The position numbers and the translations under genes are program-made. Below are positions 25,429 to 26,531 of a DNA stretch of 26,941 nt, piece by piece. The DNA comes from a virus. The stretch lies in the IMG/VR virus record IMGVR_UViG_3300048136_000080, positions 1 through 26,941 of that record. The stretch is one strand, 5' to 3'. The notes beneath the pieces were generated by a model, which searched no databases, was not told the origin of the DNA, and saw only the letters and a program-made list of their open reading frames with translations. The first letter of the stretch is position 1; each line of letters starts with the position of its first letter.

Positions 25429-25647
25429 ATGGATATGTACGAGTTAGAGATTTTTAATAAGCATCCGGGCTTTGTAATCGGCGCGGTTATCTTATTTATC
25501 ACTGTGTTGGGCATCGTAGGTAATGCCGACATGGAAGAAGAGATTAGCCAGTACGAGTTCTACTGTGAGAACGTCGCCATGTGGATCGACTCCAATGGTG
25601 AGAACGGGCATCCAAACTTCCGAGGTGTCGATTGTGAAAGTTCTTGA
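25429..25647 (+). CDS. small single-pass membrane protein
   Basis: A 72-residue protein (70 if the in-frame ATG 25435 is used, which has the better-spaced AAAGGG site). After a short N-terminus, residues about 14-31 (GFVIGAVILFITVLGIVG) form one membrane helix, followed by an acidic ADMEEEISQYEFYCENVAMW and a C-terminal Cys (GVDCES). This 'TM-ADxEEEISQ-x-YCENV' layout is common in phage small-gene blocks but of unknown role. Its last 14 bases overlap the methyltransferase start. Confidence 0.7.
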   Translation: MDMYELEIFNKHPGFVIGAVILFITVLGIVGNADMEEEISQYEFYCENVAMWIDSNGENGHPNFRGVDCESS

Positions 25648-26344
25648 TCTATTCGCTGGGATTGGTGGCTTTACCATCGGTCTTGAGCGAGCAGGATTCG
25701 AGACAGCGGCTTTCTGTGAGATAGATCCATACGCTCAGAAAGTCTTACGCAAGAACTGGCCCGGAGTACCGATCTATGACGATGTTAGAACAATCACAGC
25801 AGAGCGACTGGCTTCAGACGGAATTGGAGTCGATGTCATTACAGGCGGCTTCCCCTGCCAAGACATCTCAGTCTCAGGAAACCAGGCAGGAATACAGGAC
25901 GGAACACGAAGCGGGTTATGGTCAGAGTGCGCCCGTCTGCTTGGGGAGCTTCGACCCCGATACGCCATCTTTGAAAACGTTACAAACCTTCTTAATGGAG
26001 AGCGGGGAGCTTGGTTTAAGCGAGTACTCTGGGACATTTCCCAGATCGGGTATGATGCGGAGTGGCACTGTATACCAGCTTCCGAACTTGGCGCGCACCA
26101 CCACAGAGATCGGATCTGGATTGTGGCCTACCCCAACAGCGCACAACGCCAAAGAGGGAGCCTATCCATCGGAGTACACAAGGAAAACGCCAACATTGTC
26201 GGCGCAAGCGGGTGGCAAACTGAACCCGGCTTGGGTCGAGTGGCTAATGGGATTCCCAATCAATCACACAGACTTAAATGTTTAGGGAACGCAGTCGTTC
26301 CACCAATACCAGAACTGATAGGGAGCGCGATACGTGAAACTTAG
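25634..26344 (+). CDS. dcm: C5-cytosine DNA methyltransferase (Dcm family)
   Basis: A 236-residue enzyme with all key C5 motifs: DLFAGIGG (5-12, AdoMet), GGFPCQDIS (71-79, catalytic Cys75), ENVTNL (114-119), GAHHHRDRIW (153-162) and LKCLGNAVVPP (214-224). The frame is open upstream, but the family's first strand begins at VKVLDLF, so GTG 25634 with GAGG eight bases before it is the start. The target-recognition region between motifs VIII and IX is very short, as in other compact phage members. No restriction partner is nearby, so it is probably an orphan enzyme that guards phage DNA. A second open frame lies wholly inside it. Confidence 0.9.
   Translation: MKVLDLFAGIGGFTIGLERAGFETAAFCEIDPYAQKVLRKNWPGVPIYDDVRTITAERLASDGIGVDVITGGFPCQDISVSGNQAGIQDGTRSGLWSECARLLGELRPRYAIFENVTNLLNGERGAWFKRVLWDISQIGYDAEWHCIPASELGAHHHRDRIWIVAYPNSAQRQRGSLSIGVHKENANIVGASGWQTEPGLGRVANGIPNQSHRLKCLGNAVVPPIPELIGSAIRET
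25776..26285 (+). CDS. overprinted protein inside the methyltransferase gene
   Basis: A 169-residue frame, shifted by +1 relative to the methyltransferase and lying fully inside it. It has its own GGAG site nine bases before ATG. The product matches a phage protein pattern I know as a stand-alone family: SPAKTSQSQE (26-35), FDPDTPSLKTLQTF (59-72), YSGTFPRSGMMRSGTVYQLPNL (84-105), LWPTPTA (116-122) and a closing LNPAWVEWLMGFPINHTDL (149-167). Members are often found next to Dcm genes and have no assigned activity. If expressed, this stretch of DNA encodes two conserved proteins. Expression is unproven. Confidence 0.6.
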   Translation: MTMLEQSQQSDWLQTELESMSLQAASPAKTSQSQETRQEYRTEHEAGYGQSAPVCLGSFDPDTPSLKTLQTFLMESGELGLSEYSGTFPRSGMMRSGTVYQLPNLARTTTEIGSGLWPTPTAHNAKEGAYPSEYTRKTPTLSAQAGGKLNPAWVEWLMGFPINHTDLNV

Positions 26345-26531
26345 TTACCGGGAAGTGAAACGGGCGGCACAGATGGAGAGTGAAGAGGGCATCAAACTCT
26401 GGGCATTAGCTGTTCTATTCAACGTACACGAGAATACGATGAGCAAATATCTACGTAATTACCGGAAGTACGGGCGTTCATACTGGTCAAACTATCCAAC
26501 AGAGGTAAATGATGGCCGACCATCGTGGTAA
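26334..26531 (+). CDS. small HTH protein (65 aa)
   Basis: A 65-residue basic protein from a GTG start that overlaps the methyltransferase stop by 11 bases. It has a homeodomain-like helix-turn-helix at about residues 20-45 (IKLWALAVLFNVHENTMSKYLRNY). The C-terminus is aromatic (YWSNYP). It is likely a DNA-binding protein; in this position, just before packaging genes, it could help terminase site recognition or regulate the late genes, but neither is shown. It overlaps the next gene by 20 bases. Confidence 0.65.
   Translation: MKLSYREVKRAAQMESEEGIKLWALAVLFNVHENTMSKYLRNYRKYGRSYWSNYPTEVNDGRPSW

Follow-up and report, generated by a model that had tools for sequence, protein, structure and literature searches.

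To our knowledge, evolutionary support across many lineages has rarely been given for long overlaps between same-strand genes of bacteria or phages. In ordinary C5 cytosine methyltransferases, motif IX follows the variable region and precedes motif X. Reportedly, Lee, Kam and Shaw described in 1995 that the small gene of M.EcoHK31I is contained entirely within the large gene, in another frame. M.EcoHK31I (YGGCCR) is made of two polypeptides, the large one carrying motifs I-VIII and X and the small one motif IX; its recognition domain has been placed, by prediction, in the large subunit (PMC3404938). Enzymes of the M.AquI type also consist of two polypeptides, of which the larger carries motifs I-VIII and the small motifs IX and X (PMC3404938). 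A different kind of overlap is found in the ShiLan type, where an out-of-frame HNH endonuclease is hidden in a phage DNA methylase as a mobile insertion (PMC11855218). In the literature on overlapping genes in phage cytosine methyltransferases, we found only this HNH insertion paper and mentions of M.EcoHK31I.

The IMG/VR record IMGVR_UViG_3300048136_000080, analysed here over its whole length of 26,941 nt (the window), carries a C5 cytosine methyltransferase gene near its right end. We refer to the product of the methyltransferase frame as alpha and to that of the +1 frame as beta. With a probability that we put at a little under nine in ten, this one stretch encodes, in two overlapping frames, both subunits of a single split C5 cytosine methyltransferase. 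The features on which the argument draws are the following.

25634..26344, + strand: alpha, 236 aa from a GTG start; the C5 cytosine methyltransferase subunit with motifs I-VIII and X, canonical motif IX absent
25763..25766, + strand: GGAG, a Shine-Dalgarno-like box 9 nt 5' of the beta ATG, within the alpha WPGVP codons
25776..26285, + strand: beta, 169 aa, lying within alpha in the +1 frame; putative recognition module and motif IX (phrog_1008, open-frame and substitution tests)
25776..25778, + strand: ATG start of beta, formed from alpha TAT GAC (Tyr-Asp)
25851..25868, + strand: beta SPAKTS over alpha motif IV FPCQDIS; catalytic Cys75 at 25856-25858
26105..26128, + strand: alpha motif VIII RDRIWIVA over beta GSGLWPTP; R158 and R160 invariant (alignment A2)
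26127..26216, + strand: putative beta recognition module PTPTAHNAKEGAYPSEYTRKTPTLSAQAGG; alpha is variable here (substitution test)
26220..26267, + strand: putative beta motif IX LNPAWVEWLMGFPINH over alpha EPGLGRVANGIPNQ; fused relatives L146 and L325-L346 have this block in the alpha frame
26282..26302, + strand: alpha motif X LGNAVVP, at and past the end of beta; third-position changes dominate after motif IX

A beta codon starts at base 2 of an alpha codon, so that the alpha wobble base is the middle base of beta and the alpha first base is the beta wobble. Both neighbouring ORFs overlap the ends of alpha, which is therefore part of a tightly packed gene row: a 72-aa ORF upstream (25429-25647) ends within its first codons, and the next ORF, starting at GTG 26334 (26334-26531), overlaps its last ones. 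Like the large subunit of M.EcoHK31I, alpha carries motifs I-VIII and X while motif IX resides in a separate small polypeptide, here beta, and the phage pair has the nested, out-of-frame small-subunit layout that M.EcoHK31I is said to have. Unlike in M.AquI, motif X in this phage is part of alpha, and beta is fully nested.

Alpha is assigned to the C5 methyltransferases by matches to TIGR00675 (3.2e-41) and to phrog_363, the latter over its full length (6.4e-75). Motifs I, IV (PCQ), VI (ENV), VIII and X are all present, and an alignment of relatives gives C75, E114, N115, R158, R160, G218 and N219 as invariant. The sequence-only reading had taken this frame to be intact, with Cys75 and GNAVVP, and so it is, as the match to PF00145 (2.4e-50) also indicates. 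That match covers residues 1-172 only. An in-frame motif IX, sought with a regular expression, is absent from alpha in 79 of the 80 relatives found with the alpha profile. The recognition region and motif IX do not stand in one chain with motifs I-VIII in alpha, and since motif IX lies in the +1 frame, alpha alone is not classed as a complete C5 methyltransferase.

The +1 frame had been reported as open for 169 codons from ATG 25776 to 26285; it is, and all the blocks quoted from it are there. As a null, the synonymous codons of alpha were shuffled, with protein and codon usage kept, and +1 stops were counted over the beta span. This phage has no stop where a mean of 6.4 is expected, and none of 200 synonymous shuffles leaves the frame open. 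Across 56 diverse loci (less than 75% alpha identity), 20 stops are found as against 301 +/- 13 expected from the shuffles, and the frame is wholly open in 45 of the 56, compared with 0.8 expected. Because these loci were mostly found with beta, the count was repeated in an independent sample of 80 loci found with the alpha profile, which gave 58 stops versus 403 expected. The start signals of beta point the same way. A beta start with a Shine-Dalgarno-like box is present in 106 of 194 alpha genes, where synonymous shuffles predict 17.4, and 8 of these genes are devoid of any usable beta start (111 expected).

It could be argued that the +1 frame seems conserved only through the DNA-level conservation of alpha. 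Part of any tblastn similarity is indeed such a shadow, since synonymous shuffles of alpha retain a median beta-HMM score of about 68-71 bits; the E-values of beta matches in the alpha-found loci are likewise partly due to DNA homology, and for this reason comparison with shuffles was used instead. By this measure, the beta-HMM score of the +1 frame exceeds all 30 shuffles in 80 of the 80 alpha-found loci, the HMM having been built without them. With stops, four-fold divergence (see below) and start signals all far from the shuffle expectation, a chance open frame is rejected and an artefact of this kind is next to impossible. By these open-frame, substitution and start-signal tests, the +1 frame is a genuine and conserved second gene, and the proposal of two conserved protein-coding genes in one stretch holds.

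The substitution pattern tells on which protein selection acts. Among 197 distinct alpha genes, compared in pairs of 80-90% nucleotide identity, divergence at four-fold sites (d4) is 0.466 before, 0.124 inside and 0.357 after the overlap. Inside, d4 drops 3-4 fold and the changes shift away from position 3 of alpha towards its position 1, which is the wobble of beta. Suppression of synonymous sites in alpha, a check that had been suggested with the discovery of the inner frame, is thus found and is limited to the overlap. Motifs IV-VI show the pattern of alpha's code under restraint. In the motif IX stretch, alpha d4 is 0.010 at 80-90% identity and the changes fall at alpha position 1, almost purely the pattern of beta. 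On the 3' side of motif IX, third-position alpha substitutions dominate.

The variable region requires cautious comparison, since its modules differ from locus to locus. The recognition-module test was confined to one common module and, to guard against circularity, to residues that had not been used in finding it. In the shared module, substitution at alpha positions 1, 2 and 3 is 0.63, 0.27 and 0.13, and identity is 0.73 for beta versus 0.30 for alpha. In the 25 residues that follow GGFPCQDIS the corresponding values are 0.43, 0.37 and 0.66, the signature of alpha's code. The module PTPTAHNAKEGAYPSEYTRKTPTLSAQAGG occurs in 24 places among the loci gathered at that stage. The recognition modules follow beta's code; the residues past the catalytic Cys follow alpha's. 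These segment-wise patterns imply that it is the alpha protein that counts over motifs I-VIII and X, and the beta protein over the recognition region and motif IX. Unlike what has been predicted for M.EcoHK31I, the recognition region is here conserved and selected in the frame of beta, not in the large subunit. One may go further and regard beta as a dedicated specificity subunit built of exchangeable modules, 1-3 in most proteins, through which phages would swap DNA targets out of frame, alpha being in that region nearly a free passenger kept open only to reach motif X. We consider this extension to be evenly balanced between true and false.

What is beta? Its most conserved block is LNPxWVEWLMGFPxGWTD. 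It matches phrog_1008 (3.7e-24, beta residues 6-130) and has no Pfam or NCBIfam match. An HNH endonuclease insertion was considered and rejected, given that beta is without any Pfam match; no HNH match is detected in beta, which, in contrast to the ShiLan type, is read as part of the enzyme. The phrog_1008 profile also matches the beta protein of phage Diva (1.1e-73), Clarenza gp77 (1.3e-95) and the C-half of fused methyltransferases. In PHROGs v4 it is entered as 'DNA methyltransferase', a cluster without a stated role or mention of out-of-frame nesting. Sequence searches of the PDB with beta, or with a profile of the fused C-halves, found no homologue. The AlphaFold2 model of beta alone is poor (pLDDT 56.5), so no fold is claimed for beta by itself. 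By hhalign, beta and the fused C-halves are related with 97.9% probability, the alignment covering the PTP stretch only, with motif IX outside it. The block LNPDWVEWLMG is common to beta and to relatives with an in-frame motif IX. Judged by this shared block, LNPxWVEWLMGFP of beta is evidently the methyltransferase motif IX that is missing from alpha. The C-terminal half of beta is the counterpart of a recognition region and a motif IX that fused relatives carry in the alpha frame, so that the best reading of the inner gene is as the second half of one and the same enzyme.

The sequence-only reading had instead taken beta for a known stand-alone phage family born by overprinting. Yet none of 268 beta matches assessed across the first 261 loci is truly free-standing. 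The check that it had proposed, how many beta homologues are co-encoded with the methyltransferase, gives 244 of 268 wholly inside an intact alpha. Another 20 overlap alpha partially, several of them at contig ends, and one shares an ORF with an alpha broken by a frame change. The 3 matches with no overlapping alpha are two in-frame C-halves of fused enzymes and one extra piece in L260, where a paired beta is present as well. Copies in databases can look stand-alone because annotators keep one frame. In Stenotrophomonas phage SOVA965 only beta is annotated, while an intact alpha frame of 248 codons is left unannotated; in the RefSeq entry of an E. coli prophage only alpha is listed. Both genes are annotated in Paenibacillus phage Diva, which has the same nested architecture: beta is DIVA_50 (234 aa) inside DIVA_49, called 'g49 internal gene' and a hypothetical protein, with no proposed role. 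Hundreds of phages and prophages, spread over many bacterial phyla, share the nested arrangement, and its second half mostly lacks an annotation.

A protein unrelated to the methyltransferase, overprinted on a dcm gene and endowed with its own function and free-standing descendants, would account for the records that annotate beta only. It would also suit the N-terminal half of beta (SPAKTS to YQLP), which covers alpha motifs IV-VIII, on top of which it must have originated. However, no free-standing descendant has turned up among the 268 matches, the C-terminal half of beta corresponds to a methyltransferase recognition region and motif IX, and exactly what beta carries is missing from alpha. 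An unrelated protein is hence very unlikely. Overprinting as such is partly borne out, in that it fits both the N-half of beta over motifs IV-VIII and the reading of alpha through beta's recognition region; the stand-alone family is unsupported, and the C-half consists of methyltransferase parts.

Relatives in which the two halves are arranged otherwise bear on how beta is made. Some actinophage genes have motifs I-X in one frame, and others are split after motif VIII, with beta in the +1 frame. The fused actinophage enzymes are matched in their C-halves by the beta HMM as well as by phrog_1008. A fused homologue has a predicted fold like that of M.HhaI (E 3.5e-14), and in fused forms the Pfam match falls short of motif IX. 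In the partly overlapping pairs L008 gp78/gp77 and L096, alpha stops shortly past motif VIII and beta goes on in +1; this layout resembles M.AquI, L008 gp77 carrying both motifs IX and X. Such pairs, together with the existence of fused forms, could suggest ribosomal slippage near motif VIII, by which translation would pass out of alpha into beta and give one chain with motifs I-IX, with plain alpha as a second product. But the beta frame is already open and constrained far upstream of this motif, and it has kept its own start codon and ribosome-binding box (106 versus 17.4 expected); a slip near motif VIII needs neither the upstream frame nor a start of its own. We thus hold frameshifting to be very improbable and prefer two separately started subunits of one enzyme.

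In the fused genes (L262-L319, L090, L092, L094), the beta HMM detects a beta-like +1 frame over motifs IV-VIII; in 20 of 22 genes its score exceeds that of every one of 50 synonymous shuffles. This suggests that at least these fused actinophage forms descend from an overlapping ancestor. For L294 and L094, the best segment is 98% identical to Akhila gp60, yet L294 uses two frames where Akhila uses one, which suggests that fused and split forms have interchanged recently. In L098 (Mycobacterium phage OfUltron, 1133-1892), a frame change splits alpha into two annotated genes; the near relative L097 (Bubbles123) is intact.

A further variant is found in L146 and L325-L346. In these loci the block RLNPDWVEWLMGYPISWTD is in the alpha frame, followed by motif X, and only the recognition region is left of the nested +1 gene (124-182 codons). 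The reduced gene is kept open, with no +1 stops versus 84 expected, and alpha d4 in its modules is 0.081, whereas motif IX is back to an ordinary alpha-frame substitution pattern. These recognition-only forms make up one clade (support 99) among the nested ones, in a tree that is unrooted, has many weak branches and uses crude regex 'B' labels. L324 (E. coli PT62 prophage, 1058-2044) has a second, different cytosine methyltransferase with an open +1 frame containing WPTP and LNPAHSRWLMGLP; dual coding may thus reach other dcm subfamilies.

The alignments show both frames to be under protein-level selection, the start signals of beta to be kept and the motif contents of the two products to be complementary. 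From this we infer that beta is translated, binds alpha and sets specificity. Alpha, with the AdoMet-binding and catalytic domain (motifs I-VIII) plus motif X, would attack the base. Beta, made from its own ATG and Shine-Dalgarno-like box, would supply the target-recognition region and motif IX and so complete the small domain. Association of the two would give an active enzyme methylating a specific sequence. Methyltransferases of this kind usually serve to protect phage DNA against host restriction, and this is probably, by assumption, the role here.

The two-polypeptide principle is already known from M.EcoHK31I, to which the phage pair is likened by its layout. Unlike that enzyme, the pair is phage-borne and has exchangeable modules. 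New here are the scale, the phage setting, the recognition region in the nested gene, the exchangeable modules and the recognition-only variant.

Across hundreds of phages and prophages, selection clearly acts on both frames, whose products resemble the two halves of a single enzyme. If this reading is true, many phage entries named 'DNA cytosine methyltransferase' would describe half an enzyme, alpha cloned alone may be inactive or non-specific, and gene callers and family databases would be missing the likely specificity subunit. The series of fused, partly overlapping, nested and recognition-only forms illustrates how one protein may become two overlapping genes and back. Should modules indeed be swapped, these loci would be a compact and widespread dual-coding analogue, so far unrecognised in gene databases, both of the multispecific phage methyltransferases and of the exchange of specificity subunits.
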